From Haloferax sp. Q22 (GTDB lineage: Archaea > Halobacteriota > Halobacteria > Halobacteriales > Haloferacaceae): DNA of 62,853 nt. The translations under genes were made by a program, and so were the position numbers. The stretch's first letter is position 1. Every line of letters begins with the position of its first letter. The stretch is taken from the NCBI RefSeq assembly GCF_001482285.1, contig NZ_LOEP01000004.1:1-62853 (forward strand). Direction: 5' to 3'. The notes below the pieces were generated by a model. It was not told where the DNA came from and did no database searches. It was given only the letters and a program-made list of their open reading frames with translations. Below are positions 7,593 through 21,429 of this stretch, in pieces.

Positions 7593-7618
7593 TTTATCGG
7601 CCCCCTTCGGGTGCGGGG
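7593..7618 (+). promoter_or_regulatory. Shared element promoter/operator, copy 1 (antirestriction gene)
   Basis: TTTAT at 7593-7597, 11 nt, then GGGTGC at 7609-7614 followed by GGGG. The C-run before and G-run after form a dyad (CCCCC-TTC-GGGTGCGGGG). The ATG follows 29 nt after GGGTGC. The TATA-like box is at a suitable distance for a short-leader transcript, so the dyad would sit between TATA box and start site like an operator. Four further copies exist in the window. Confidence 0.6.
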
Positions 7619-7643
7619 CGGCACCTCGCCCTGCTGATTCGAA

Positions 7644-8582
7644 ATGTCACAGCCAGACACAGCCATGCAGACAGCGACGTTCAGCGACGCACCCACCCGT
7701 GCCGACGAGATGCAACTTGCCGTCGAGGAATGGTTAGAAGACCTCCTTGCCGAGATGACCACCGCACACGCAAGCGAGGCGTTCCAGCGGTGGCTTGACG
7801 TCCAGAGCCGGTTTCACGACTACTCAGCGCGGAACAGCCTGCTCATTTCGTTGCAATGTCCGGACGCGACGCACGTCGCAGGCTACCGGACGTGGCAAAC
7901 CGAGTTCGACAGACAGGTCTCGGAAGGTGAGTCGGCGATTTGGATCTGGGCTCCGATCACGGCCAAAGTGTGTCCGGCTTGTGGCGAACCGAAGTCCACC
8001 CACGACGACGACTGCGAGAGCGACGGTGTGCCATACTCGGAGTGGTCGAGTCAACTGCGTTCGTTCAAGCCGGTTCCCGTGTTTGATGTGTCACAGACGA
8101 CGGGCGAGCCGCTGCCGTCGTTGGAGACCGCCACACACGGTGACGCGAGCGACCTCGTTCCCATGCTCTGTGCCGCGGCGGAGTCACTCGGGGTGGACGT
8201 GTCGCTCGTGTCTCCGAGTGAGTGGACCCACGGCGCTGCGCGCGGCGTGTGTGAGTTCCCGCAGGGACACCGACCGAGCGTCGCAGTCAGACAGCGGCCG
8301 AACGAGGCGGATATGGCGACGACGCTCGTCCACGAGTTCGCTCATGGGCTGTTGCATGCAGACCGGACGAGCCTGCCAGAGCGGTCGCTGCGCGAAGTCG
8401 AAGCAGAAGCAGTCGCGTATCTCGTCGGTCGACAGTTCGGGTTGGATGTCAGTAACTCAGCGTTCTACCTCGCTGCCTGGGCGGGCGAGGACGCCGCGTC
8501 GGTTCTCGAACGTCTCAACCGGATTCGGTCGGTGACGGTGTCGATACTTGGGGCGGTTGGTGACTCGGCTGGTCGTCCCTAG
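7644..8582 (+). CDS. ArdC-like antirestriction protein with ImmA/IrrE-type metallopeptidase domain
   Basis: 312 aa. Residues about 25-130 match the ArdC N-terminal ssDNA-binding type domain (WLDVQSRFHDYSARNSLLI, then GYRTWQ). A small zinc-knuckle insertion (CPACG, then C about 11 residues later) is followed by a C-terminal gluzincin domain with HEFAH at about 230-234 and a downstream EVEAEAVAYLV helix giving the third ligand. In plasmids and conjugative elements such proteins protect incoming DNA from host restriction. A first ATG at 7644 and an alternative at 7665 are both possible. It has its own copy of the shared element promoter. Confidence 0.75.
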   Translation: MSQPDTAMQTATFSDAPTRADEMQLAVEEWLEDLLAEMTTAHASEAFQRWLDVQSRFHDYSARNSLLISLQCPDATHVAGYRTWQTEFDRQVSEGESAIWIWAPITAKVCPACGEPKSTHDDDCESDGVPYSEWSSQLRSFKPVPVFDVSQTTGEPLPSLETATHGDASDLVPMLCAAAESLGVDVSLVSPSEWTHGAARGVCEFPQGHRPSVAVRQRPNEADMATTLVHEFAHGLLHADRTSLPERSLREVEAEAVAYLVGRQFGLDVSNSAFYLAAWAGEDAASVLERLNRIRSVTVSILGAVGDSAGRP

Positions 8583-8670
8583 CTCGCTTGCGATTGCGCG
8601 ACAGTCGCCTCTCGTTCAGCGACGACCGAGACGTCGCTGACTCGCTGCCTGTGAGCAATCGCCGAGAGAG

Positions 8671-8698
8671 TTTATCGCCCCCACACAGGGTGCGGGGG
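8671..8698 (+). promoter_or_regulatory. Shared element promoter/operator, copy 2 (SWIM gene)
   Basis: TTTAT at 8671-8675, 12 nt, GGGTGC at 8688-8693, then GGGGG. The flanking C-run pairs with the G-run. ATG at 8724, 30 nt beyond GGGTGC. The architecture is the same as at 7593, 9275, 9601 and 19765. Confidence 0.6.
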
Positions 8699-8723
8699 CT
8701 CACCACGAGCGTTCGCCGTTCCA

Positions 8724-9272
8724 ATGACTCCGAAACGACCACCCACCAGACGGTCCGTAGCGACATCGACCCACCGCGGTCACGACCTCGTCCGTGTGAC
8801 CGAGTGGCTGCCGGGAAGCGAGCCAACTGACTACGCTCTCGAACTCTCCGACGGCGACGGCTATCGAACGCGGTTTTGGCGCTGTCGGAACTGCGGTCAC
8901 GAGCGAAACCGGCGCGACGAGTTCCGCGAACCGTGTCGTTCGACACCCGGCCGCCCGCTCGTGAGCGACGGCGGCTACGCAGTCGAAGACTCGCGGACAT
9001 GGAAAGCACTCATCGAAGCGATGACGGTCCGGTTCGGGACCGTCGGCCCGCGCTACGACGTCGAGTCGTCGAGCGGGAACACCTACGAGGTCGATATCGC
9101 GGCAGGGACGTGTAGCTGCCCGGACCACCAGAAACGCGGTGTCGAGTGCAAGCACCTGAGACGGGTGTTGTTCGAACTCCGGACGCGCATCCTGCCTCAG
9201 CCGGACGGGCGCTTCGCACGGTGTGTGGCGGAGTCGCGACGAGAGACGAGTGCGTTCGAGCAATCGCGGTGA
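8724..9272 (+). CDS. SWIM zinc-finger protein
   Basis: 182 aa. A basic N terminus is followed by a first module containing GHDLVRVTEW and a zinc knuckle FWRCRNCGHERN with a third Cys about 12 residues on. The C-terminal half carries the SWIM signature C-x-C-P-D-H...C-K-H (about 130-145). SWIM domains bind DNA or proteins and are common on haloarchaeal plasmids. The next gene encodes a shortened paralogue of the first module. It is preceded by promoter copy 2, and the stop codon directly abuts promoter copy 3. Confidence 0.75.
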   Translation: MTPKRPPTRRSVATSTHRGHDLVRVTEWLPGSEPTDYALELSDGDGYRTRFWRCRNCGHERNRRDEFREPCRSTPGRPLVSDGGYAVEDSRTWKALIEAMTVRFGTVGPRYDVESSSGNTYEVDIAAGTCSCPDHQKRGVECKHLRRVLFELRTRILPQPDGRFARCVAESRRETSAFEQSR

Positions 9273-9274
9273 GT

Positions 9275-9301
9275 GTTATCTCCCCCTGAGGGGTGCGGGG
9301 G
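9275..9301 (+). promoter_or_regulatory. Shared element promoter/operator, copy 3 (small zinc-knuckle gene)
   Basis: GTTAT at 9275-9279 (one mismatch to TTTAT), 11 nt, GGGTGC at 9291-9296 and GGGGG. The dyad CCCCC-TGAG-GGG is nearly perfect. ATG at 9321. It begins 2 nt after the upstream SWIM gene stops. Confidence 0.6.
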
Positions 9302-9320
9302 AACTTCCCTCGTAGTTCCA

Positions 9321-9545
9321 ATGGCAACGAATCATACCAAACACGACAGCGGCATCGCTGAGCGCACACCGACCGGACACGAGATTCTCGTCGTCACCGA
9401 GTGGGACGACGACGGAACACCGTCGCTCGAAACACTCGCGCAGTTCGACCAGGGCCGGCGGCGCGTCTGGCGCTGTGTGAACTGCGGAGACGAACGGAAC
9501 GAGCCATCCGGGTTCGAGCAGGGCTGTCCGAACCAACCGGTGTAG
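9321..9545 (+). CDS. Small zinc-knuckle protein, paralogue of the SWIM protein N-terminal module
   Basis: 74 aa, ATG at 9321, immediately after the promoter dyad. It contains GHEILVVTEW, VWRCVNCGDERN and a following Cys, which align residue by residue with GHDLVRVTEW and FWRCRNCGHERN of the SWIM protein just upstream, but it stops before a SWIM domain. It therefore looks like a duplicated and truncated or free-standing version of that module. The reading frame is clean and separately promoted, so it is probably expressed rather than a remnant. Confidence 0.65.
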   Translation: MATNHTKHDSGIAERTPTGHEILVVTEWDDDGTPSLETLAQFDQGRRRVWRCVNCGDERNEPSGFEQGCPNQPV

Positions 9546-9600
9546 GTCGCGATCGCCGCGACGACGACACGCTACAATCCGAGGCGCACCGCCTGCCAAT

Positions 9601-9626
9601 TTTATTCCCCCCTGAGGGGTGCGGGG
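9601..9626 (+). promoter_or_regulatory. Shared element promoter/operator, copy 4 (TFB gene)
   Basis: TTTAT at 9601-9605, 11 nt, GGGTGC at 9617-9622 and GGGG; dyad CCCCCC-TGA-GGGG. ATG of the TFB gene at 9658. Confidence 0.6.
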
Positions 9627-9657
9627 TGGCGAAGCAGCCACCTCACGACCGACAACA

Positions 9658-10587
9658 ATGTCTCTGAGAGAAATCTACGACCGAACCTTCGACGAATCGT
9701 GCGGAAAATCCATCGACGCCAGCGAATGTCCCGAATGTGACGGGCGACTCACGACGGACAGCGGTGAAACAGCCTGCGAGGGGTGCGGCCTCATCGTCGA
9801 CCAGTACTATTTCGACCACACGCATGGGCCGCGTGTGTTCGACGAGGACCCCCACTCAGTTCCCCGAACGGGTGGCCAGATCACCCCGGCGCGACACGAC
9901 AGAGGCGTTTCAGCGGAAATCGGCTACAACCGTGATGCGAACGGGCGGACGGTGTCGAGTAAGAAACGACGGCAACTCTACCGGCTTCGGCGCGAGCATC
10001 GGCGGGCACGCTTCGAGTCGAAAGCGGAGCGGAACCTCGCGACGGCGCTCGGTGAGATTAGCCGAATGGGGAGCGCCCTCGATCTCCCGTGGAATCTCAT
10101 CGAAGAGGCGAGTCAGCTCTACCGGCGTGCCCAAGACGCGGACCTGATTCGAGGGCGCTCAGTCGAGATGATTGCCGCGGGGTGCCTGTATGCGACGTGT
10201 CGGCGGCGTGGCCTGCCGCGCCCACGTGATGAAATCGCGAGCGTCGCGCGCTGTTCGTGTGCCCAGGTGCAGACGGGCTATCGAGCACTCAACAGCGAGT
10301 TAGGAATCGATGCGCAGGTCGTCACCGCGCGGACGTACGTCACTCGGCTCGGGTCGGACAGCGGCCTCTCGACGCGGGTGCAGTCACGGGCGTACGAACT
10401 CGCGACAAGTGCCGACGAGGGCGGGATTACAAACGGGCGGAATCCGGCTGGCGTCGCCGCAGCGTGTCTCTATCTCGCGGGAACGGAACTCGATGTCGCC
10501 CCGACACAGACCGAACTCGCCGCACTCGCGGACGTGTCGGTCCCAACGCTCAGAGCGCGGTATGTCGAACTCACCGAACTGGCGTGA
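9658..10587 (+). CDS. tfb: Transcription initiation factor TFB (TFIIB), element-encoded
   Basis: 309 aa. The N-terminal zinc ribbon has Cys at 24, 27, 40 and 43. A B-finger/linker region (about 60-105) is followed by two cyclin-like repeats (about 115-205 and 215-305), the second including ARTYVTRLGSD and NPAGVAAACLYLAG. TFB recruits RNA polymerase to TATA/BRE promoters; haloarchaea carry many TFBs with specialised sets of promoters. This copy lies in the mobile element and is itself preceded by the shared promoter dyad, so it could serve the element's own promoters. The ATG at 9658 fits the zinc-ribbon start. Confidence 0.9.
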   Translation: MSLREIYDRTFDESCGKSIDASECPECDGRLTTDSGETACEGCGLIVDQYYFDHTHGPRVFDEDPHSVPRTGGQITPARHDRGVSAEIGYNRDANGRTVSSKKRRQLYRLRREHRRARFESKAERNLATALGEISRMGSALDLPWNLIEEASQLYRRAQDADLIRGRSVEMIAAGCLYATCRRRGLPRPRDEIASVARCSCAQVQTGYRALNSELGIDAQVVTARTYVTRLGSDSGLSTRVQSRAYELATSADEGGITNGRNPAGVAAACLYLAGTELDVAPTQTELAALADVSVPTLRARYVELTELA

Positions 10588-10618
10588 GAACCGGCGGCGA
10601 CAGTCGGCTCCGGTCTGC

Positions 10619-10915
10619 TCAGGTGTCGTCGTCCGAATCGGAAGCGGCCGGCGGGCGGCGCGAGAGTCGGTCGAAGCGTGACTGAGCGGCCTCGGTTCGC
10701 GCCTCGGTCTCGTCGGGTTCGTACTGGCCACCGTCGTATGCGCCGTCAGCGACGGTAATCGTCAAGACCGCGTTTTGGGTTCTCGCTCGCCACGGCAGTT
10801 CGTCGCGGTCGACGACGAGTTGGTCGATATCCCGACCGTCGGCTTCGACGAGCAACACCGCGTGGTCGTCCTCGAATCGGTCGACTGTCGCCGTGTATGT
10901 CCCGTCTGGAATCAT
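10619..10915 (-). CDS. DUF3006 family protein
   Basis: 98 aa. It begins MIPDGTYTATVDRFEDDHAVLL, typical of DUF3006, which pairs with secreted metallo-beta-lactamase proteins in haloarchaea and firmicutes. The C terminus is acidic and low-complexity. Its start overlaps the stop of the upstream MBL gene by 4 nt, indicating one transcription unit. It is a small predicted beta-rich domain of unknown activity. Confidence 0.75.
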   Translation of the reverse strand: MIPDGTYTATVDRFEDDHAVLLVEADGRDIDQLVVDRDELPWRARTQNAVLTITVADGAYDGGQYEPDETEARTEAAQSRFDRLSRRPPAASDSDDDT

Positions 10916-12357
10916 GCGTACGTCTCTTCGAGTACGACCGCACCGGTATTATCGGTCACGGTGATGGTGTCACCGCCGTTGTTCCAGATGGCCGAGCCGG
11001 AGCCCCAGTAGTAGTCTGTGGACGTATCGGTCCCCGTTCCGGTGTGGAGGGTGAGGGTCTCGCCTGCGGCGAGTGTCGTGTCCGACGGGAAGGTGTAGGT
11101 CCGGCCTGCGGCATCGGCAACTGTCCAGCCGGAGATATCGAGGGCGTCACTCCCGGTGTTCTCGAAGACGATGTACTCGTCGTTCAGGTTGTCCGTGTCG
11201 TCTCCCGCGGCGTCGGCGTGGACGTCCGCGACTGCGAGCGATGCGGCCGGGGTCTCGGTTTCGGTCCCGCCGTCAGTTGCGACCGGCGTGAGCGTCGCGG
11301 CCGTTCCGTTGGTCGTGATGGTCGTCCGGGCGGTCACCTCCCCGGTCGTCCCCGGTTCAATCGCCGTCCCCTCGCGGAGTTGTGTCGGGTCAGTCGGTGC
11401 ATCTCGTTGGGTGCCCACGGTGACGTGCTGGCCATCGCTTTCGAAGACAATCGTGCCGTGGGTTGCCGTCCAGTACGTCGGCACGGACTGCGCTGCCAGC
11501 CGGGACAGCGTCTCTTCGTTCGGGTGGCCGTATTGGGAGTCGTACGCGCTCGAGACGACGGCGACCTTCGGCTGGACCGCTTCGAGGAACGGGGCCGTCG
11601 TACTTCCGGCCGAGCCGTGGTGGCCCGTTTTGAGCACCGTCGCGTGCAGCTGTGAGCCGTACGTGTCCACGAGATACTCTTCGGCTTCGTGTTCGGCGTC
11701 CCCGGTAAACAGGAAGCGCGTCGACCCGAACTGGGTCATGAGGACGATACTGTTCTCGTTGCGGTCTTCGTTTGCCAGGTAGCCCTCGGGTGGCGACAGA
11801 ACTTGGGAGTTCACGTCTCCCAGCTGGATTTCGTCGCCGGCCTGCGTGCGGTACAGCGGCACGTCGTGTTGTTCGATGGCGTCGAGATACGCCTCGTACG
11901 TCTGGGAGGTGGAGGTGATGCCGGGGTCGTACACCGCACCGATGCCGTCAGCCTGCGTTTCGAAGTAGTTGATAATGGCCGCGTTCCCACCGATGTGGTC
12001 CGCATCAGAATGTGAGGTCACGAGATAGTCGATGCGGTCGATCTCGTGTGCTTGGAGGTACGAAAGCACGTGTTCACCATCGTCTCGGAAATCACCGGTG
12101 TCGATGAGCATCGTCTCTCCATTGGGGGCGACAAGGAGCGTACTGACAGACTGGCCGACGTTGATGAAATGGACTTCGAGCGTCCCGTTGACCGACGCGA
12201 CAGTTTGGGTCGACTGTGTCGTCGCCGTCGTCGTTGCCGTGGACGTTGCTGTCGGTGACGCCGTTGTTCCTGTGTCGGGGGCGGGGCCACCGGCACCGGT
12301 ACAGCCGGCGATGAAAACGAGGAGGACGACCGCAATCGTCCGTGCCTGGGGAGCCAT
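10912..12357 (-). CDS. Secreted ComEC/Rec2-like metallo-beta-lactamase lipoprotein with lamin-tail domain
   Basis: 481 aa. The N terminus ends in a lipobox (VFIAGCTG, Cys19) and a Thr-rich linker follows. Residues about 60-320 form an MBL fold with IDTGDF, the zinc motif SHSDADHIGG (about 110-119), FTGDAE and KTGHHGS, as in the exonuclease-like domain of ComEC. Residues about 375-480 form a lamin tail domain (EYIVFENTGSDALDISGWT). Extracellular nuclease or DNA-handling activity is the usual suggestion. It is coupled to DUF3006 by a 4 nt overlap. A role in taking up or processing DNA during conjugation is inference. Confidence 0.8.
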   Translation of the reverse strand: MAPQARTIAVVLLVFIAGCTGAGGPAPDTGTTASPTATSTATTTATTQSTQTVASVNGTLEVHFINVGQSVSTLLVAPNGETMLIDTGDFRDDGEHVLSYLQAHEIDRIDYLVTSHSDADHIGGNAAIINYFETQADGIGAVYDPGITSTSQTYEAYLDAIEQHDVPLYRTQAGDEIQLGDVNSQVLSPPEGYLANEDRNENSIVLMTQFGSTRFLFTGDAEHEAEEYLVDTYGSQLHATVLKTGHHGSAGSTTAPFLEAVQPKVAVVSSAYDSQYGHPNEETLSRLAAQSVPTYWTATHGTIVFESDGQHVTVGTQRDAPTDPTQLREGTAIEPGTTGEVTARTTITTNGTAATLTPVATDGGTETETPAASLAVADVHADAAGDDTDNLNDEYIVFENTGSDALDISGWTVADAAGRTYTFPSDTTLAAGETLTLHTGTGTDTSTDYYWGSGSAIWNNGGDTITVTDNTGAVVLEETYA

Positions 12358-12656
12358 ACGACGACATGGCCGGCAGGTGGTTTATGTTTTCGTGGCCCTG
12401 CGAAATCCGTGGCAGTAGATACACACGGCGTGCTGGATGTAGCGGGTGTATGCAGCATGGGAGTCTATTTACTTCTCCTGGATTTATCAGAACCACCGGT
12501 TAGAAGGGGGTGTTTTCAGTTCAATGGAGGGCTCAGAGGCCATTCACTAGAATACCTCCGATCAGATCTTGCTCCCAGGTTAGGGAAGTTAGTGACAATA
12601 GAAAATACAAATACAGTAACAAATAAGTGTCAACAAATATCATGGTCTAATGTACC

Positions 12657-12863
12657 ATGGGGCTGTTAAGATCAAGCTGTTACTACTGTGGGGATACAGG
12701 TGTTGAAGAGAAATGCAGTAACTGTGGAACAAAGTTCCACGTTGACTGTGCGAGAAATGGGGGGCATCTACAAATAAAAAAAGATAGTGGGCTGATTAGA
12801 TCGACGACCTACTATAAGTTCAACTGCCCTAACTGTCCGAATCGAACTCAAGGGAAAGTGTAG
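12657..12863 (+). CDS. Small A+T-rich cysteine-rich zinc-binding protein
   Basis: 68 aa. Cys pairs CYYCG, CSNCG, a His-x-x-x-Cys (HVDCA) and CPNCPN are spaced like a two-zinc RING/PHD-type or C2HC finger. Codon use is strikingly A+T rich (AAA, AAT, AGA) compared with every neighbour, and the 70 nt before it is nearly all A/T. It is probably a recent acquisition. It stands alone between the MBL gene (divergent) and the conjugation operon (convergent). Function is unknown. Confidence 0.6.
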   Translation: MGLLRSSCYYCGDTGVEEKCSNCGTKFHVDCARNGGHLQIKKDSGLIRSTTYYKFNCPNCPNRTQGKV

Positions 12864-13025
12864 ACGCTCTCGCTGATTACTTTTATTTACTGTGGTGTCT
12901 GATAGAATAATTGTGCGTTAAATGAAATTTCAAGCCAAGCAAGCGTCAATTCATTAACCTCTGTGTCTGGTGAGATCGAGTACGGAACTGGTAACCGACT
13001 TGCGCTCTGTATTCAGCGGGATTGC

Positions 13026-13053
13026 TGAAACCGATCACCGATTGAGGGTTTCA
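13026..13053. repeat. Short inverted repeat after the conjugation operon
   Basis: TGAAACC (13026-13032) and GGTTTCA (13047-13053) are complementary around a 14 nt loop. They lie about 20 nt downstream of the stop of the VirB4-like gene on the minus strand. A transcript-end hairpin is possible. Confidence 0.3.
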
Positions 13054-13073
13054 ACAAGACCAACAGAGCCGCG

Positions 13074-15122
13074 TTAGTCGTCCGCGAGGGGACGGTCCGA
13101 ACGGTCGTGTACGCTGGGGTCGTAATCGATGACCTCGGTCTCGTCGGGCATCGCCCGCACCTCAATCCCGCGCCACTCGCCATCGAGGCCGACGAGCGCC
13201 TGTGAGTACCCCAGTCGGTCAGACCCGGGGACGGCGTCTTGGACGAATCGCATCTGTGCGTAGTTGAGCCCGAACTCGTTCGCCCACGTCTCGTCCATCC
13301 CGTCGAGATGGTGGAACTGCTTGATAGCACATTGGTCGAGAATCGCTTCCGACTCCGGATGTTGGAAGAATTCGTCGACGGTCTGGGTGACGAGGCGAAT
13401 CGAGAGGTCGTGGTGACGATGGTGGCGGAACACCGTCTCGAGGAACGACAGGCTCTCTGTGTCCTGCATGATGTAGCGGGCTTCATCGATGACGAAGACG
13501 ACCTCGTTGTCGGTCTCTTTGGCCCGCTCGTAGACGGCGGCGATGAGCAACTGCATGAGCAGGCTCGTACTGCCGCCGACGGTGCCTTCCTGTTGGCCGA
13601 GGTCGAGATAGATGAGCTTCTCGTCGCGAATCTCGAACTCGGTCTCCCGGCCGAGATTCTCGTATCGCCCGCCGGCCGCGAAGGGCCGCAGCTGGTCGAT
13701 GAGCCACGCCGCGTCGGCTTCGAGCTTCGCCGTCTCGACAGAGCTGCGAATGACGAAGTCGTCGGGCGTCTCGGACATCGTCGTCAGCACGTCGAGAACG
13801 TCACGCATCGTCGGGCTCTCGTTGTCGTGGGTCGCCACGTCGTCTGTGATCCCCTGTTCGTGATACGCTTCGGTGATGGCCAGTTCGAGCGTCGTGCGGT
13901 GGTCACCGAGGTGGATGCCACGGAGCGAAAAGAAGTTGGTCAGGAAGCTCAGCACGCTATCGATTTTCTCGTTGAACGGACTGGCGTCGTCGCCGAGTGT
14001 TCGCTGGACGCGCGGCGGAGTCGGCTTGATTTCGAGTGGGTTGAGTCCCATCTTCCCACCAACCGTAATCCGGTGGGCGTTGAGGGCTTCGGCGACACCG
14101 GCCCAGTTGTTGAGCGGTTCGAGAATGATGCCGATGCGGTCTTTCGAGTTCGCAATCGAGCGGATGAAGTTCTGCTTTGCGCCGAACGACTTTCCGGAGC
14201 CGGGGTCGCCGACGGTGAACATCGCATACCCGTTTTCGCGGGCGAACGCATCGATAACGACCGGGCTGTCGTTGTGTCGGTGAATCCCGACTTCGACACC
14301 GTCGGGTTCGAGAATCGTTGGATTGTGTGGTGACGCAAGCAACGCCCCCACGGCCCCGCCGAGGGCAACCACGTCTTCGTCGAACGGGTTCGGACCGAGG
14401 GGAGCGGCTGCTTGGAGCCCGCGGTCCTGTGCACACGTCGCCGTCTTCGGCGTGAGATTTGCGGGGTGGTCGCGAAGGCGTCGCTTGACGGTTCGAACCG
14501 CCTCGCGGAGTTCGCTGCGGGTGTCACCACGAACGGTCAGAAACATCGCCTGCGAGAAGACGTGTTGGCCCTCTTCGACGGCGGTGTAGGTCGCCGTTGC
14601 TTCGTCAGCCCGCGTCTGGAGATACGAGCCACGGACGGTCTGTTCGAGCTTCGCGTCGACTTGGAGGTTATCGGCGAGCGTCTGCAGTTGGTCGCGAGCG
14701 CGAGCTTGGTTTTTCGGCTGTAAGCGAACCGTGCAGTCGAACTCGATATCGGTGAGATTGAACAGCTCGTTCAGATAGCCGTCTTTGGGATAGTCCGGGT
14801 AGGACGCCAGATACAGCGTCGTCGTCCATTGGTCGCCGACACGTGCGGCGCGGGTGTCCCACTCGATTGCAGCGGGCGCGGCCATCGATGCGTGTGCAGT
14901 ATCGATTGCCTCCAGAATCGAGCGGTCGGCGGCCGCCTGCTCCAACACCGACTCATCGAAGACGGCAGTCGGGTCGAACGCCTCGGTCGTGTGGGTCAGG
15001 CGTCGCCAGCCGACGGTGAGCGCGACGCCAGCGAGAAACGCAAGCCCACTCCCAAGGACGGCCCACAGAACTGGTTCCGGTGGTGACGCGAGCGCCGATT
15101 GGAGCAGCAGCTGCTCAACCAT
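13074..15122 (-). CDS. VirB4-like conjugation ATPase
   Basis: 682 aa from the ATG at 15122 (a second ATG two codons upstream is also possible; the open frame upstream of that overlaps the preceding gene and is not needed). One N-terminal hydrophobic segment (about 15-35) is followed by a VirB4/TrbE-type N domain. The P-loop GDPGSGKSF is at about 303-311, Walker B FVIDEA at about 540 and the VirB4 motif LVTQTVDEFF about 40 residues later. VirB4 ATPases power assembly of type IV secretion channels. The start overlaps the previous gene by 8 nt, so it is the last gene of the operon. Confidence 0.85.
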   Translation of the reverse strand: MVEQLLLQSALASPPEPVLWAVLGSGLAFLAGVALTVGWRRLTHTTEAFDPTAVFDESVLEQAAADRSILEAIDTAHASMAAPAAIEWDTRAARVGDQWTTTLYLASYPDYPKDGYLNELFNLTDIEFDCTVRLQPKNQARARDQLQTLADNLQVDAKLEQTVRGSYLQTRADEATATYTAVEEGQHVFSQAMFLTVRGDTRSELREAVRTVKRRLRDHPANLTPKTATCAQDRGLQAAAPLGPNPFDEDVVALGGAVGALLASPHNPTILEPDGVEVGIHRHNDSPVVIDAFARENGYAMFTVGDPGSGKSFGAKQNFIRSIANSKDRIGIILEPLNNWAGVAEALNAHRITVGGKMGLNPLEIKPTPPRVQRTLGDDASPFNEKIDSVLSFLTNFFSLRGIHLGDHRTTLELAITEAYHEQGITDDVATHDNESPTMRDVLDVLTTMSETPDDFVIRSSVETAKLEADAAWLIDQLRPFAAGGRYENLGRETEFEIRDEKLIYLDLGQQEGTVGGSTSLLMQLLIAAVYERAKETDNEVVFVIDEARYIMQDTESLSFLETVFRHHRHHDLSIRLVTQTVDEFFQHPESEAILDQCAIKQFHHLDGMDETWANEFGLNYAQMRFVQDAVPGSDRLGYSQALVGLDGEWRGIEVRAMPDETEVIDYDPSVHDRSDRPLADD

Positions 15123-16212
15123 CGGCATCCTCCCGTTGGCTGTGTCCGAGCGCTGGTGCCGTTCGGAGACTCGCCTCCGGGTCGCCGTACTCGTGGACGG
15201 CTCCGTTCCAGAATTCAACCGAAAGCAGGAACTGCTCGGTCGTCGAGAGCCGGCGGGCTGCCCAGCCGCGTTGTTTCCCGATGAGTTCCGTTTCGAGCGT
15301 CCGACAGCGTGTGTCGACGGCGTCGAACAGGCGAGCGCGGACCTCCGCCTCGGTGAGTTTCTCACGCCGCGTCACGAACGGCGTCAACAACACCCCCACG
15401 AGCGGCAGCGCGGTCAGTCGCTGCAGCGGTGTCTCCTCTTCGTTGAGATCGCTGTAGACCTCGAACGGGTCGACTTCGACGCCGAGGTAGTAGCAGATTT
15501 CCTGTGTCCCAGCCATCTCTTCGGGCCGCGTGTCGCGATACTCGGAGAGGAGTCGCTCGAACGCCGGGCTTTCGGCCACGTCTTCGTCGGTGAGTCGGTC
15601 ATCGATGCGGTCGATGAGTCGGTCGACGGGGAACGGTCGCGTCGTCGCGTGGAGGACGAGCGGAAAGTCGAGTTCGTTGTTCGCGAACGTCTCGGCGACG
15701 TGCTGTCGTTGGGCCCAGTCACCGGACATCGCGAAATCCATGTTCGACGGGTTGAGTTCGACCATCCCGACCATCGTCCCATCACTCCGTTCGAGTGCGC
15801 CTGCACCAGGCCACGCCGCGGCGATGTTGGTGAGGTCTTGTGTCTCCTCGGCGGGGACGAAGGGGTTGTAATCGCCAAGCGTCTGTGCGTCACGCCCGGT
15901 CGCGTCGGTGTCGGCGTACGCCGTCGTGAGTGACGGCCGGCCGAGATAGTAGTGGACGAGGTCGCCGAGCCAGGCGGTCGTCGTTCGGTGTGACGGCGTC
16001 GCGTAGACGGTAAGGAGGCCGCAACACAGTCCCCCAAGGCCGAGCGGCCAGAGGAGTGAATCGATACCGGTCAGTCCAGCGATGAAGACCCCCACGATTG
16101 GGAAGCCAACGAGCGGGTAGAGGTCGCCTTCCTCGATGTTCAGAATCGGGATGCGAACCGCTTCACCGAGCGTTTTCAACAGTCGTCGTTCAGCAGGTGT
16201 CTCTTGTGACAT
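15115..16212 (-). CDS. VirB3/PrgI-like membrane component of the conjugation apparatus
   Basis: 365 aa. Two hydrophobic helices at about 30-75 (VGFPIVGVFIAGLTGI and LGLGGLCCGLLTVYA) resemble the PrgI/VirB3 two-helix unit. They are followed by a cytoplasmic domain of about 250 residues comparable with VirB4 N-terminal regions (LPLVGVLLTPFVTRREKLTEAEVRARL, EQFLLSVEFWNG). The gene directly precedes and overlaps the VirB4-like ATPase gene and abuts the upstream VirB6-like gene without a gap. Assignment rests on topology and context more than on residue motifs. Confidence 0.6.
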   Translation of the reverse strand: MSQETPAERRLLKTLGEAVRIPILNIEEGDLYPLVGFPIVGVFIAGLTGIDSLLWPLGLGGLCCGLLTVYATPSHRTTTAWLGDLVHYYLGRPSLTTAYADTDATGRDAQTLGDYNPFVPAEETQDLTNIAAAWPGAGALERSDGTMVGMVELNPSNMDFAMSGDWAQRQHVAETFANNELDFPLVLHATTRPFPVDRLIDRIDDRLTDEDVAESPAFERLLSEYRDTRPEEMAGTQEICYYLGVEVDPFEVYSDLNEEETPLQRLTALPLVGVLLTPFVTRREKLTEAEVRARLFDAVDTRCRTLETELIGKQRGWAARRLSTTEQFLLSVEFWNGAVHEYGDPEASLRTAPALGHSQREDADG

Positions 16213-17325
16213 TCAGTAGTAGCCAGGGTCGTTCTCAGTTCGGCGATACGTGGGGACGCCGCGCTGGCCGTTCGCATCGGCGGCGACGTGGTCGTGTTGC
16301 GTTGCCGTTTCTGGGGGAGCGGAGGGTTCGAGTGTGGTTTCAACCGCGTTGACCGCCGCAGACCGCGCACCGAGTTTCGCGACCGAGGCGGCACCAGCAG
16401 GCCCGCTGACGGCACCCGCAGCGACAACCGTGCCAGCGGTGGCTGTGAGTCGCCCGGTCCGCTGGACTGCCCGCGTCGTTCGTGGGATGACGTCACGAAA
16501 GAGTCGCCATGCGATGTAGACCGACACGAGCGGGAGCGAGGTCGCAAGGAGGTAGCGGGCGAACGCACTCCCTGGCACGAGGTCGAACGTAACGAGCGGC
16601 GCGAGCACGAGGTCGTATGCACCAAACAGCAGGGCAATCGGAAGTGGGACAATCAAAAGCGGGATGAACCGCCGGCACAGCGACGCCGTGAGTCGCGAGA
16701 CGACAGGGAGATTGGCGTACGTGACTGCGAGTCCGAACGGCATCGCGAAAATGTAGCCAAACAACAGCAGGTCGCGAACGACAAAGAGCGCTTGGAGGCC
16801 CCACATGCCGAGCGCCCCGAGCGCCCCGAGTCCGAACGCGAGAATCGGGTTCGTAATCGTCACGACCAGCAGGTCGGACAGGAGCGTGCCGACACTCGTC
16901 ACCGGCGGCAACAACAGAAGCGTGACCGCATCGACGAGCGTGAGCGACGCTGCGGCAATCCAATACCAGCAGACGATGAGGACACCGCCCGTCCAAGCAG
17001 ACCGCGATGTCGCTCTCGCAATCAACGGATTTCCGAGATTGAAGACGCGAATCGTGTTCCTCGCTTGGACGGCCATCACGAGCAGCAACAGTGCAAGGAA
17101 GGTGGTTTCACCAGCGACGAGCGTCTCGTGGAGTGACTGCCACGGTTCGTTCGTCGGGACGCCGATGCCGAGGACGCTCCCCGTCTCTGGGGTTGGCGTT
17201 CCGAAGGCGGCCGCGCTCAACTGCTCGTAGCCGTCGGTGATACCGCGCTGAAACCAGCCGGTGATGGCGGCGAGGATGTCGGCGAACCACTTACTACCGA
17301 GTTCGGACAGCGTCGAGTCAGCCAT
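16213..17325 (-). CDS. VirB6/TrbL-like polytopic membrane protein
   Basis: 370 aa with six to eight hydrophobic segments (about 65-85, 100-125, 140-165, 180-205, 230-260, 275-295), then an Ala/Gly-rich stretch and a polar tail ending NDPGYY. The layout fits the VirB6/TrbL inner-membrane channel component. The start codon region is 60 nt from the upstream exported-protein gene and the stop abuts the next gene, consistent with one operon. No enzymatic motif is visible. Confidence 0.6.
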   Translation of the reverse strand: MADSTLSELGSKWFADILAAITGWFQRGITDGYEQLSAAAFGTPTPETGSVLGIGVPTNEPWQSLHETLVAGETTFLALLLLVMAVQARNTIRVFNLGNPLIARATSRSAWTGGVLIVCWYWIAAASLTLVDAVTLLLLPPVTSVGTLLSDLLVVTITNPILAFGLGALGALGMWGLQALFVVRDLLLFGYIFAMPFGLAVTYANLPVVSRLTASLCRRFIPLLIVPLPIALLFGAYDLVLAPLVTFDLVPGSAFARYLLATSLPLVSVYIAWRLFRDVIPRTTRAVQRTGRLTATAGTVVAAGAVSGPAGAASVAKLGARSAAVNAVETTLEPSAPPETATQHDHVAADANGQRGVPTYRRTENDPGYY

Positions 17326-17388
17326 GTCGCCTCCGGGTTCGAGGTCGTGGTCGATGCAACTGTGAAACGGATCGTGTACTGCGTCGTA

Positions 17389-19074
17389 TCATGGGTTTGG
17401 AGTACTGAGTCGGCCAAGTTGGTGTAGTGCGTACACCACGGCCCCAACGGCGAGCAGGAGTTTGAGAAGTTCCCAGAACGCGTCGGTCAGGCCGTGGGTC
17501 GTCGTGAGCGGGTGCCAGGTGGCAGTCGCTTCGGTCGCGACGTAGGCAGGCTGTCCCGGTCGCCACGTCGCCGGCCGGTACGTCGCCCGGTAGCTGCCGG
17601 GTTCAGAAACGACGACCGTCGCTTGGCCGGTTTCGTTGAGTGACACCGGCGTCCCAGCGACGGTGACCACGCCACCGGTGTGGTTCGTTCCGGGTGCCCC
17701 GGTCGACAGCGGTGCGCCCGTCGTGTCGTCGGTGAGGGTGACGCGAAGCGTCGCGTCCGTCAGCGAGCGCGACACGGTCGTGAGTGTGAGCGTTGCGTTC
17801 CGAGCGCGTTGTGGCGTTGCTGGGAGCGAACGTGTCGTCGGTGGTCCGGCAACGAGCCCGGTGAGCGTAATCGACGAGGCCGCCGGCTGTCGGAGGCGGA
17901 GCCTGTCGACGTGCTGGTACGCCGTCGGTGTACTCGTGAGATTCGAGTCGTCGAACTGGGGGCGCGCGTGCTGGGTTCCCGTTCGGTCTTCGATCTGTAG
18001 CGGCCCCCACGGCCGGTCCGGCTCCGGACGCGGGCGCGTTGGAACGGCATGGACGACGAGCGGTCGTGCTGTCGGTCGAACCACCGCAGTTGTCGTCGCA
18101 GTTGCCTTGTCGAGCGTCTGCCACGCTGGCTCTGCGGCGGTATAGAACCGCCAGATGTTCTGGACTGCATGGTCGGGTGTCCCTGCGAGTGCATAGCGAC
18201 TCCATGGCGTCAGATTCGAGAGGATGACTTGGCGGGTGTCGTCGTGGTGCGCGAGGACAGCCGTGTCTGCACTTGGCCGTGTGACGACGACAGCCTGCGT
18301 CTGGCTGACGGTGACGTTCGCCGTGACGAGTTCGGTCGTCGTCTCGCGCGTGCCGTTTGCGGTGACTGTGACCGTCCGTTCGAACGCGGCGGTGACGGTT
18401 GCCGTGAGTCGGAACTGCGTTCGCCCCGTCGGGACCTGCTGATAGGTGAACGTCGGCTGTTGTGTGTTCGAGTCGGTTGCGATGACACCTCGGTCGGTGG
18501 CAAACGAGACTGATTCGACACGGTGTGAACGCAGTCGCCACGAGACGGTCGTGTTGCCGGTCGTGACCGGTGTGGTGTCGACTCGATAATCGACATAGCC
18601 ATGGACGGTCCCTGTCGGTCGAACGAATCGCGTCGTCGTCGCGGTCTCGTGGACGAGCGTCGACGGCGACACCGTCAGCAGCGACACTCGAACGTCTCGA
18701 AGTTGGCCATCGGAGCCAACCGTGGCCGACGATGGGCCGAGCGACGTGGTTTCGTCACCCGGCGTCATCGACTGCCGAAGACGGTCGTTCGCCGCCGTCA
18801 CGTTGGGCGGTGTCTCGTACGTGAAGTCCGTACACGTTGCCAGCAATTCGGCTGGTTGCGGGTCGCGTCCGTACTGCTCGCGGTAGCCGTCTGCTGTGAG
18901 ACAGGCGTCCGCGTCGTCCGACCAGCGCGTCGCATTTGTGTGGGGGGCCGGTTGCGACGCGTTTCCGGGTGCTGCTGCTCCAACGCCAACCAGAGCGACG
19001 AGCGCCACGGCGGCGAGGACGCAGGTCACACGGCGGAGCGAAGCTGTAGAACCGCTCGGAGTGTGAGACCTCAC
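17389..19074 (-). CDS. Large exported Thr-rich surface protein of the conjugation operon
   Basis: 561 aa from the GTG at 19074, which places a signal peptide at the N terminus (CVLAAVALVALVGVGAAA). The preceding open frame is Ser/Arg-rich shadow of the upstream gene. The mature part is beta-rich with many N-x-T/S sequons (surface glycosylation is common in haloarchaea) and two Ig-like repeats in the last third (TGAPLSTGAPGTNHTGG, then ATVVVSEPGSYRATY). A C-terminal transmembrane helix (LLKLLLAVGAVVYALHQLG) anchors it. It may act as an adhesin or mating-pair factor. It lies 7 nt after the VirB2-like gene. Confidence 0.6.
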   Translation of the reverse strand: MRSHTPSGSTASLRRVTCVLAAVALVALVGVGAAAPGNASQPAPHTNATRWSDDADACLTADGYREQYGRDPQPAELLATCTDFTYETPPNVTAANDRLRQSMTPGDETTSLGPSSATVGSDGQLRDVRVSLLTVSPSTLVHETATTTRFVRPTGTVHGYVDYRVDTTPVTTGNTTVSWRLRSHRVESVSFATDRGVIATDSNTQQPTFTYQQVPTGRTQFRLTATVTAAFERTVTVTANGTRETTTELVTANVTVSQTQAVVVTRPSADTAVLAHHDDTRQVILSNLTPWSRYALAGTPDHAVQNIWRFYTAAEPAWQTLDKATATTTAVVRPTARPLVVHAVPTRPRPEPDRPWGPLQIEDRTGTQHARPQFDDSNLTSTPTAYQHVDRLRLRQPAASSITLTGLVAGPPTTRSLPATPQRARNATLTLTTVSRSLTDATLRVTLTDDTTGAPLSTGAPGTNHTGGVVTVAGTPVSLNETGQATVVVSEPGSYRATYRPATWRPGQPAYVATEATATWHPLTTTHGLTDAFWELLKLLLAVGAVVYALHQLGRLSTPNP

Positions 19075-19081
19075 GCGACCG

Positions 19082-19519
19082 CTAGATGGGGACGAGGTCG
19101 ATACACGTCGCAAGCGGGAGGCCCATCGTACTTCCAGCGACGGTGTAGAGCGGGCCGAGTAAGACGAGCGTGAGCGTCGATTTGAGTGCGGTTCGCTTGT
19201 GTCGCTTGATCTTCTCTCGTTGGTCTGGGCTGAGCGTGAAAATCTCAGACAGCGAGTTCCCCTGCCAGACGACGACGAGGCCGATGAGTCCAACCGTCGT
19301 CGTGAGTTGGAAGAATCCAGAGATCATCGTCGGGATTCGGTCTGTTTGACAGATGACACTCTCTTGGGCGAGTGCCGGTTCGACAGCAATGAGACTGAGC
19401 AAGACGACTCCAATCAGTCCATGTCGAGCGAGATGTCTAACCGTCGGTACAGCGTGCGTATGGCCAGAAGAGCGAGCGTGTGCTGCTGCTCTTCGGACCC
19501 GAGCGAATGGGCGAGTCAT
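19082..19519 (-). CDS. VirB2/TrbC-like pilin-type small membrane protein
   Basis: 145 aa. A long basic N-terminal region leads to a signal peptide with a classical cleavage site (AVEPALAQES, about 46-54). Two hydrophobic helices follow (about 67-88 and 112-130), separated by a charged cytoplasmic loop rich in Lys/Arg. This matches VirB2/TrbC conjugative pilins, which are small, signal-bearing and bitopic. It is the first gene of the minus-strand operon leading to the VirB6-, VirB3- and VirB4-like genes. The start could also be further in, at Val/Met codons before the signal peptide. Confidence 0.55.
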   Translation of the reverse strand: MTRPFARVRRAAAHARSSGHTHAVPTVRHLARHGLIGVVLLSLIAVEPALAQESVICQTDRIPTMISGFFQLTTTVGLIGLVVVWQGNSLSEIFTLSPDQREKIKRHKRTALKSTLTLVLLGPLYTVAGSTMGLPLATCIDLVPI

Positions 19520-19764
19520 ACTTCTTGGGTAGACGGGCTTTCACCGCGTTCGAGTGGTGGCTGCCATCGAACTGTCACCGATTGGGTAGGAGTCGGAGAC
19601 TATCGCTTGTTTTTCTCGATAGCTAGCTATAAATTTGGCGCAGAGATATCATCTATGATACTGACGGCCCACATTTCAACGGAACCGATGTATTCTACTA
19701 CTTACAGGCCTAATTGAAAGACTTAGAATTGATATTTATAATCAACGGAGCATCGTACTGTAAT

Positions 19765-19794
19765 TTTATAACAGCCGACAAGGGTGCCGGCTGT
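19765..19794 (+). promoter_or_regulatory. Shared element promoter/operator, copy 5 (integrase operon)
   Basis: TTTAT at 19765-19769, 12 nt, GGGTGC at 19782-19787. Here the palindromic arms are ACAGCCG (19771-19777) and CGGCTGT (19788-19794). Spacing of TTTAT to GGGTGC equals that in front of the antirestriction, SWIM, zinc-knuckle and TFB genes, though the arm sequences differ. The recombinase ATG follows at 19814. Confidence 0.5.
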
Positions 19795-19813
19795 ATTCGG
19801 CCGGCGATTACGT

Positions 19814-20311
19814 ATGAGACGAACGAAATCAAGAGAAGCGATAGATCGCGTTGGGATATACGCTCGTATTGGCGACGTTCCTGAGATTCACCGGCTGTCA
19901 CGGCATCAGCCGACGTACCAGGGTCAAGATACGTGGTCCGAATTCTGTGAGGAATACGAGTACGGACGTGGCTCTGGTTCACGGTACAACGAGGCAGTCG
20001 ATCGGGCTGGATCACATTGGCTCGAACATATGGACGAATTGCAGCGTCATCATGCTCTTGCGACGCCAACACATGTTGAGCGTTGGTGTCGACGTCTTTT
20101 GGATGATAAGTCAGCTGCAACCGCGTACAATTACTGGGTTCGTATCAAGCGCTTCTACGATTGGTTGTTGTGGCATACCAACCACCCACATCGGTATTCT
20201 CCAGTAATGCTTGCTGTTGTCGCCGGTGGCGCAGCTGGTGACATTTGGGATGTGAAAATTAAGAAATGGGAGACTGTTCGCCCACGGAACGAGGGAGGCG
20301 ATTCCGCGTGA
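19814..20311 (+). CDS. Recombinase accessory protein: free-standing SAM-like core-binding domain
   Basis: 165 aa from ATG 19814 (a GTG at 19784 is in frame but lies inside the promoter dyad). The second half (VERWCRRLLDDKSAATAYNY, then IKRFYDWLLWH) matches the N-terminal SAM-like DNA-binding domain of tyrosine recombinases. There is no catalytic domain. It is coupled to the complete recombinase by a GTGA overlap at 20308-20311. It may help the integrase bind its arm or core sites, or be an excision factor. Confidence 0.65.
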   Translation: MRRTKSREAIDRVGIYARIGDVPEIHRLSRHQPTYQGQDTWSEFCEEYEYGRGSGSRYNEAVDRAGSHWLEHMDELQRHHALATPTHVERWCRRLLDDKSAATAYNYWVRIKRFYDWLLWHTNHPHRYSPVMLAVVAGGAAGDIWDVKIKKWETVRPRNEGGDSA

Positions 20312-21429
20312 CTGAACAGCCGCAAACCCCCCGTGAGATGTTAGCAGAGGAATTCGGTCAGTCTACCGACCCACTTGCCGCGCTTGAACCAACGTTCAAC
20401 AAGACGACTGTCGACCCATTCGAGGTGTTCTTTGAGGAAGTGCTAAACGCACGGGATCTCTCATCAGCAACTCGAGGACACTTTGCGTATGTCTTCGACG
20501 AGTGGCGCTCACATATGTGTGAGATGGGACGACACCCAGCTTGTCCTGCGCTCGAACACGTCGAGGCCTACATTGAGATACAGCGTACACCAAAAAAAGA
20601 GGGTGGCCGCGGAAACACGGCACGAACGGTTAAAGAAAAACTGCGCAAGCTCAACCGGGCATATCAGTACTGGCAGGACGACCCCGTATTCCCACATAAA
20701 GACGGCTACAACCCATTCGAGCTAGCCAAGAAACGGGTTTCGTTGCGTGTCAAGAAGACTAAGGAGCATCGAAAGGTCACGATTGCAGAGCTCCGGGATA
20801 TGGTTGCCTCGGTAACCAATCTCCGGGCGAGGGCACTCATCATGCTTCAGTTGAAGCTTGGCCTGCGCGCTGGTGAAGTTTCGAACCTCCGTCTCGAAGA
20901 CATCAGCCTAACAGCGTCGCTTACAAATGAAGCATATCCAACGCTGGGGTCGCATGAAGCATTAGGCACGAGGACAAATCTCGTGTACATCCCGTCGCGG
21001 GATGAGCGGGACGGGAATAAATCGGTTAGACCGCGTCTCCTCCCGTTAGATACAGAAATACGGTCGCTTCTGGACCGCTATCTATACGCACGGCCCAAGA
21101 ACGGTGAGCCGTGGTTGTTTCTGTCGAAAAAGAGCCACACCCAGATGACTGTAAAAGGTGTGAACAAGGTCTGGAAGAAAAACTTCCATCCGAAGTATGC
21201 AGAAACGGACGCGCATCGGCCGATTACAAGTCATTTCGGTCGGCACCGGTTCACCACATATTGGCGTGTCGAACAAAACCTGAACCGGCAACTCGTGAAA
21301 TATCTCCGAGGCGACCGGACTGGTAGCTTTACGAACAGTAGTGGGATCGATGCATATCTTCACGCGTACTACGAAGATATCGAAGCAACATACCGAGCGG
21401 ATATCTACAAATTAATCGAGGAGGCGTAG
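20308..21429 (+). CDS. Tyrosine recombinase (integrase, XerC/D family)
   Basis: 373 aa from the GTG at 20308, which overlaps the upstream stop. Residues about 40-145 form its own SAM-like core-binding domain and about 165-370 the catalytic domain. Catalytic residues visible are Arg in LKLGLRAGEVSNL, the His/Arg cluster SHFGRHRFTTYW and a Tyr in IDAYLHAYYEDI near the C terminus. It is expected to integrate and excise the element. It is the last gene before the change to chromosomal composition. Confidence 0.85.
   Translation: MTEQPQTPREMLAEEFGQSTDPLAALEPTFNKTTVDPFEVFFEEVLNARDLSSATRGHFAYVFDEWRSHMCEMGRHPACPALEHVEAYIEIQRTPKKEGGRGNTARTVKEKLRKLNRAYQYWQDDPVFPHKDGYNPFELAKKRVSLRVKKTKEHRKVTIAELRDMVASVTNLRARALIMLQLKLGLRAGEVSNLRLEDISLTASLTNEAYPTLGSHEALGTRTNLVYIPSRDERDGNKSVRPRLLPLDTEIRSLLDRYLYARPKNGEPWLFLSKKSHTQMTVKGVNKVWKKNFHPKYAETDAHRPITSHFGRHRFTTYWRVEQNLNRQLVKYLRGDRTGSFTNSSGIDAYLHAYYEDIEATYRADIYKLIEEA

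Follow-up and report, generated by a model that had tools for sequence, protein, structure and literature searches.

In bacteria, the antidefence genes of plasmid leading regions all lie on the transferred strand (T-strand) and have promoters for single-stranded DNA (ssDNA) (PMC11541004, PMC9849209). The best described of these, the Frpo/ssi promoters of F, ColIb-P9 and other bacterial plasmids, are inverted repeats upstream of antirestriction or establishment genes, occur in several copies per plasmid and serve genes on one strand (PMC9849209, PMC11541004); in the pLS20 family of Bacillus, one regulatory sequence, EGeRS1/EGeRS2, stands before ardC and other establishment operons, with variable genes spread over several units (PMC8708921); and in the archaeal viruses of Sulfolobales, a conserved regulatory sequence marks an early counter-defence regulon (PMC11065993). 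The establishment of conjugative DNA in archaea is almost unexplored, and the element described here, which resembles all three systems in these respects, provides a sequence handle on it across the class Halobacteria. It was found in a 62,853-nucleotide stretch of Haloferax sp. Q22 (contig NZ_LOEP01000004.1, positions 1 to 62,853, assembly GCF_001482285.1; hereafter the window), the first 21.4 kb of which form a mobile element that carries ArdC-like, SWIM, zinc-knuckle-like, transcription factor B (TFB), type IV secretion system (T4SS) and integrase genes. Its layout begins with an AT-rich box (TTTAT or a T-run) and a short spacer; a left arm follows, then 4-6 free bases, the hexamer GGGTGC and finally a right arm whose sequence is complementary to that of the left arm. 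We consider a strand-specific hairpin element of an establishment regulon to be the best explanation, with a probability of about 0.5.

A sequence-only reading of the window had reported five copies, at 7593, 8671, 9275, 9601 and 19765, in front of antirestriction, SWIM, zinc-knuckle, TFB and integrase genes, and reading the sites directly gives the same five copies and the same genes. The box described as TTTAT in all copies is present in four of them, the 9275 copy having GTTAT-N11-GGGTGC, and the box spacing of 11 or 12 nt was correctly described: TTTAT-N{11,12}-GGGTGC has exactly four matches in the window (7593, 8671, 9601 and 19765), all on the plus strand, where 100 dinucleotide shuffles averaged 0.02 and never gave more than 1. 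Arms that vary with pairing kept were also found as described, with complementary arms of 4-7 bp at every site (5, 6, 6, 4 and 7 contiguous pairs for sites 1-5) and a common loop NNNN(N)GGGTGC of 10-11 nt. GGGTGC occurs 37 times in the window, and besides the five sites none of these occurrences has both an AT-rich box and arms; the minus strand of the window carries no site. Site 2 is kept in relatives (L072, L073, L076 and L077), with changes in the loop. The observation of five shared sites is confirmed, and the element is far more widespread than was seen at first.

From one gene family to the next the arms differ in sequence and keep their complementarity, the pairs including GCCCC/GGGGC, GCGCC/GGCGC, GCGCCG/CGGCGC, GCTCC/GGAGC and CCTC/GAGG and, among others, GTGCC/GGCAC, CGCGCCT/AGGCGCG and ACAGCCG/CGGCTGT. 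The arms covary: 24 of the 91 clusters without a GGGG right arm keep at least 4 pairs, where permutation gives a mean of 4.2 and a maximum of 11 (2000 runs), and if the right arm is fixed as GGCGC and the left arm left free, nearly all matches in 155 genomes show a CGCC partner. The interval between the arms is variable (10-13 nt), and the distance from the AT-rich box to GGGTGC is near-constant at about 11-14 nt, the box lying outside the arms at every site examined. An intrinsic terminator was ruled out, as the T-run lies before the hairpin. The right arm often pairs with a third, downstream segment too, in weak excess (mean stem 4.06 vs 3.53 in shuffles); this is seen at 7615-7640, 9623-9640 and 19788-19808 of the window and at many other sites, for example as GGTGGC GAAGCA GCCACC at 9625, and would permit two mutually exclusive hairpins.

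In the rest of the Q22 genome, arm-paired sites are confined to three contigs, C13 (5), C24 (1) and C29 (1); those on C13 precede ArdC-like, DUF6166 and TFB genes and two unknown families, that on C24 an ArdC-like gene, and that on C29 the gene of a 90-aa protein. The chromosome was checked for an equal frequency of the motif before unrelated genes, and its matches to the bare TTAT-N-GGGTGC pattern are all without arms, so that this check does not refute the observation; one chromosomal sequence, TTTATGTCCCAACACCGGGTGC, upstream of a genus-conserved gene, was rejected as a member on account of its missing arms and vertical conservation. Among 148 genomes of the family there are many further arm-paired sites, and the commonest form (T-run, GGGTGC and right arm GGCGC) is present in 47 of the 155 class-wide genomes, with 0 for the reversed-pattern control and 0 matches in ~164 genomes from other orders of the phylum. 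A search that started from the genes found GGGTGC in the same place in 71 of 79 ArdC-like gene upstream regions, most of the others being one base off; in most of these regions the AT-rich box has drifted to GTTTTTT. Finally, when 1.0 Mb was scanned mechanically and without curation, 89 sites had arms of 5 bp or longer; the reversed sequence had 0. The element is thus class-wide in Halobacteria and restricted to haloarchaea.

The IMG/VR viral contigs gave 128 pattern matches, five of them with arms of 4-5 bp and none convincing, a soft negative since haloarchaeal viruses are few there; no ArdC-like homologues were found in the haloviruses of the phage collection. We found no earlier description of the element in the openly readable literature; subscription papers were outside the search, so a prior description is possible. 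Another sequence that recurs, TTTTGTCCTGATCGCGGGTGCCAGTCCCGCGAGTAAGC, contains a dyad of its own (CGCGGG/CCCGCG); it was seen at NC_019963.1:17926 (+), G109:C2:256839 (-), G035:C1:1915683 (+) and G112:C1:264220 (+), on the strand opposite to neighbouring regulon sites where such sites are known.

The copies of the GGGTGC element are placed on one strand. Neighbouring sites less than 60 kb apart are on the same strand in 113 of 113 pairs, a list assembled by hand from which visibly arm-less matches were dropped; the uncurated 1.0 Mb scan agrees, with 23 of 23 multi-site loci on one strand. Three discordant pairs are chromosomal, more than 100 kb apart and between separate islands. The complete plasmid pNATPE02 (276 kb) has 11 sites on the minus strand and 0 on the plus strand, and ~34 of the 52 non-motif genes in these spans (about 65%, counted by eye) are co-oriented. 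In about 32 of 36 elements the T4SS ATPase genes and the sites share a strand (binomial 1e-6); these genes lie opposite in the window and in three other cases (G024:C1 and two in G030:C1), and one pair (G053:C1) is too distant to judge. Common ancestry of modules cuts the number of independent observations, yet it cannot by itself keep all copies aligned across mosaic replicons. As a separate observation, pNATPE02 (NC_019963.1) seems to consist of two related conjugative modules (Orc1/Cdc6, ArdC, DUFs, TFB, T4SS, integrase) that are fused and point the same way.

Downstream of the element there are about 40 clusters of open reading frames (ORFs), among them ArdC-like genes (by far the commonest), TFB, SWIM, DUF6735, DUF6610, DUF6166, DUF7389 and HTH-HNH families, homing-endonuclease repeat proteins, TnpB, a 166-aa MHMVIYALVEA family and small zinc proteins. 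As would be asked of an establishment regulon, one regulatory sequence serves an antirestriction gene together with several unlinked operons. T4SS ATPase genes, as would be asked of conjugative elements, turned up in 22 of the 24 genomes or records that were searched, in most cases on the site-bearing replicon. Because ArdC-like proteins, an extra TFB, SWIM and small unknown proteins correspond to the needs of a conjugative element in a new cell, the gene content suggests an establishment-type regulon of haloarchaeal conjugative plasmids and integrated elements.

This gene content bears on the earlier proposal that the element controls transfer and integration together. Control of transfer finds no support, as the T4SS genes of the window have no site and the genes under the element are of establishment type. 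For integration the case is weak: the 19765 site does lie upstream of a SAM-like ORF that overlaps the integrase gene, but 26 other integrase homologues are without a site (homologues of the integrase were found in 27 of 146 genomes), and three close relatives (L360, L361 and L362) have upstream of the SAM-like ORF the sequence ACAGCCGACGAGGGTGTCGGCTGT, with GGGTGT for GGGTGC and arms extended to 9 bp. The integrase was therefore rejected as a regular regulon member, and the site before the integrase module is lineage-specific. The gene of the ssDNA-binding protein (SSB, or RPA) was rejected likewise, two close relatives only having a site there; long RPA/SSB paralogues without the element are found on several haloarchaeal plasmids (G005, G059, G085, G094, G117 and others), about 47-54% identical to the L110 protein.

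Haloarchaeal promoters are built of a TATA box 'TTWT', a TFB recognition element (BRE) 'CGAAA' and a 'WW' -10 element (PMC4983044). Judged from spacing only, the AT-rich box would be the TATA box, the dyad would lie between TATA box and transcription start, and GGGTGC would occupy the expected WW place; start codons follow at a median of 41 nt after the start of GGGTGC, in several genes at 18-20 nt. We propose that the arms work by base-pairing into a short DNA hairpin in which GGGTGC is exposed, and that this hairpin would act in a single strand, given that every copy on an element has the same orientation. It would form while that strand is single, during entry, and may mark the promoters for early expression; once the DNA is duplex, the GC-rich box in the WW -10 place would make these promoters weak. 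The most specific version of this proposal, in which GGGTGC-loop hairpins on one strand of haloarchaeal conjugative elements would be archaeal single-strand-specific promoters that turn on antirestriction and establishment genes while the incoming DNA is single-stranded, we put forward tentatively, as a possibility that falls short of even odds.

Several points weigh against a hairpin promoter. In predicted DNA folding, the sites at 8671, 9275 and 19765 beat shuffles on at least one strand, and those at 7593 and 9601 are average; tolerance of G.T vs A.C in the arms, as a readout of the strand, is blurred by slippage of C-run arms. The sites of this very window (plus) oppose its T4SS genes (minus), of about 21 plasmid-type cases of the SSB gene only 2 have a site, and many elements have a common gene order, so that the counted pairs are not independent. 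In pLS20 of Bacillus it is the non-template strand that is transferred, so that ssDNA promoters are excluded in that plasmid (PMC8708921). Frpo has a much greater length, and its -35 and -10 boxes are rebuilt inside the stem, whereas the haloarchaeal stem is 4-8 bp with the TATA-like box outside. The outlying box and the modest folding energies speak against a literal copy of Frpo, and we have not filed the element as Frpo because rebuilding of the promoter boxes inside the stem is a defining feature of that class.

A serious rival is an operator in double-stranded DNA. The sequence-only reading had proposed one operator between TATA box and start site; in the rival account, a repressor encoded by the mobile element or the host would bind GGGTGC and the dyad and silence the resident genes, and its absence in a recipient would cause a burst of expression (zygotic induction). 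Archaeal repressor sites typically show dyad symmetry and overlie the start region, the establishment regulon of p576, including ardC, is under the ribbon-helix-helix (RHH) repressor Reg and its operators (PMC8708921), and the antidefence genes of Sulfolobales viruses share conserved promoters with likely repressor sites (PMC11065993). However, arms differ within one plasmid (C13: GCGCC, CCCCC, GCGCCG, CCCC) with complementarity kept and no constant half-site, their spacing varies, and the one-strand placement is left unexplained. No shared repressor gene was identified, although no systematic co-occurrence search was made, and ten further ORFs of the window that were scanned include no DNA-binding repressor. 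What stands of the original proposal is a shared cis-element in a fixed promoter place and a multi-gene regulon on a mobile element, the cis-element recurring across Halobacteria; the variable complementary arms and strict one-strand placement would not be expected of a single repressor operator. We favour the hairpin over the operator, which we rate as possible though on the unlikely side, because the arms covary without a constant half-site and the copies keep to one strand.

A dedicated promoter class, in which the TFB of the mobile element reads the T-run/TTTAT box together with GGGTGC in the manner of an alternative sigma factor, could coexist with the hairpin. TFB genes often carry the site, also in other elements (L060, L064, L103, L105, L115-L117), and were found on the same strand as the sites in each of the 15 complete plasmids cross-checked; but the sequence preference of archaeal TFB is known to lie in the BRE, upstream of the TATA box, and not in a variable downstream dyad, and the variable complementary arms would have no explanation, so as an account of the element it seems improbable to us. 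Still less probable is an RNA element, a transcribed hairpin working in the 5' leader: a conserved loop with variable arms is typical of RNA, and the pairing of the right arm with a third segment would suit it, but with the AT-rich box 11-14 nt before GGGTGC a normal start falls after the right arm, genes that begin 18-20 nt after the GGGTGC start leave little or no leader, and Rfam gave no match. That the element has no function, being short GC palindromes spread with genes or by chance, is hardly credible: orthologous genes do share arms, so that similarity is partly ancestry, but control matches are zero, the downstream ORF clusters are many and the covariation exceeds permutation.

The features of the window are collected in the table. 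Proteins of H. massiliensis, H. denitrificans, H. sulfurifontis and H. gibbonsii share 82-91% identity with the ArdC-like protein. The SAM-like ORF and the overlapping integrase (19814-21429) seem to be two genes and not a frameshift, because three close relatives in Haloferax have the same layout. A neighbour of the ArdC/TFB module encodes an 822-aa Tubulin/FtsZ-superfamily protein (Tubulin_2, E 8e-14; 3578-6046), and a gene between TFB and the T4SS block encodes a metallo-beta-lactamase and lamin-tail-domain protein (10912-12357).

Table. GGGTGC sites and associated genes of the Haloferax sp. Q22 window.
Feature	Position	Strand	Details
Site 1	7593..7619	+	TTTAT 7593-7597, arm GCCCC 7600-7604, CTTC, GGGTGC 7609-7614, arm GGGGC 7615-7619; upstream of ArdC-like gene
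Site 2	8671..8699	+	TTTAT, arm GCCCCC 8677-8682, ACACA, GGGTGC 8688-8693, arm GGGGGC 8694-8699; upstream of SWIM gene
Site 3	9275..9302	+	GTTAT, arm TCCCCC 9281-9286, TGAG, GGGTGC 9291-9296, arm GGGGGA 9297-9302; upstream of zinc-knuckle-like ORF
Site 4	9601..9626	+	TTTAT, arm CCCC 9609-9612, TGAG, GGGTGC 9617-9622, arm GGGG 9623-9626; upstream of TFB gene
Site 5	19765..19794	+	TTTATA, arm ACAGCCG 19771-19777, ACAA, GGGTGC 19782-19787, arm CGGCTGT 19788-19794; upstream of SAM-like ORF/integrase
ArdC-like antirestriction protein with IrrE/M78 domain, 312 aa	7644..8582	+	Pfam PF06114 E 1.2e-4, ArdcN PF08401 E 0.0018; plasmid homologues annotated ArdC-like
SWIM zinc-finger protein, 182 aa	8724..9272	+	Pfam PF04434 E 2.6e-4
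Zinc-knuckle-like protein, 74 aa	9321..9545	+	Weak DUF7130 match only, E 0.011, below cut-off
TFB paralogue, 309 aa	9658..10587	+	Pfam TFIIB E 7e-37
Conjugation (T4SS) block without the element	13074..19293	-	Pfam AAA_10/TraG, TrbL_3 E 8e-117; T4SS ATPase search
VirB4/TraG-like ATPase	13074-15365	-	Part of T4SS block
TrbL/VirB6-like protein	16213-17325	-	Part of T4SS block
Stand-alone Phage_int_SAM-like ORF, 165 aa	19814..20311	+	Pfam PF02899 E 0.019, below cut-off; conserved in relatives
Tyrosine integrase, 387 aa	20266..21429	+	Pfam PF00589 E 3.7e-10; overlaps SAM-like ORF in another frame

Any gene behind the element can now be regarded as a candidate for antidefence or settling-in, and for most of these genes no function is known (DUF6735, DUF6610, DUF6166 and DUF7389 among them); the uniform strand placement predicts the transferred strand, which makes the DNA processing of archaeal conjugation testable in Haloferax, a tractable genus. 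A lead from elsewhere is given by the single-strand origins of rolling-circle plasmids (ssoA, with the CS-6 loop hexamer), which likewise are orientation-specific hairpins with variable arms and a conserved loop hexamer; they differ in being present once per plasmid and in priming replication, and do not stand 20-60 nt before many start codons.

Compared with the systems introduced at the outset, the haloarchaeal element differs from Frpo further in its loop with a conserved hexamer and in its setting of TBP/TFB transcription. Bacterial Frpo loses its effect when the cassette is inverted on the plasmid. EGeRS1 is 400-600 bp long with many inverted repeats, and EGeRS2 has direct repeats (a TTATCCC dual motif) to which an RHH repressor binds; the TATA-dyad-GGGTGC architecture is absent from both. 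The Sulfolobales promoters belong to viruses of Crenarchaeota and conserve a strong BRE/TATA core with its flanks, with a known or likely winged helix-turn-helix (wHTH) repressor and no GGGTGC hairpin. By analogy with bacterial leading-region and establishment regulation, we suggest that the element may be part of an archaeal counterpart of this start-up programme.

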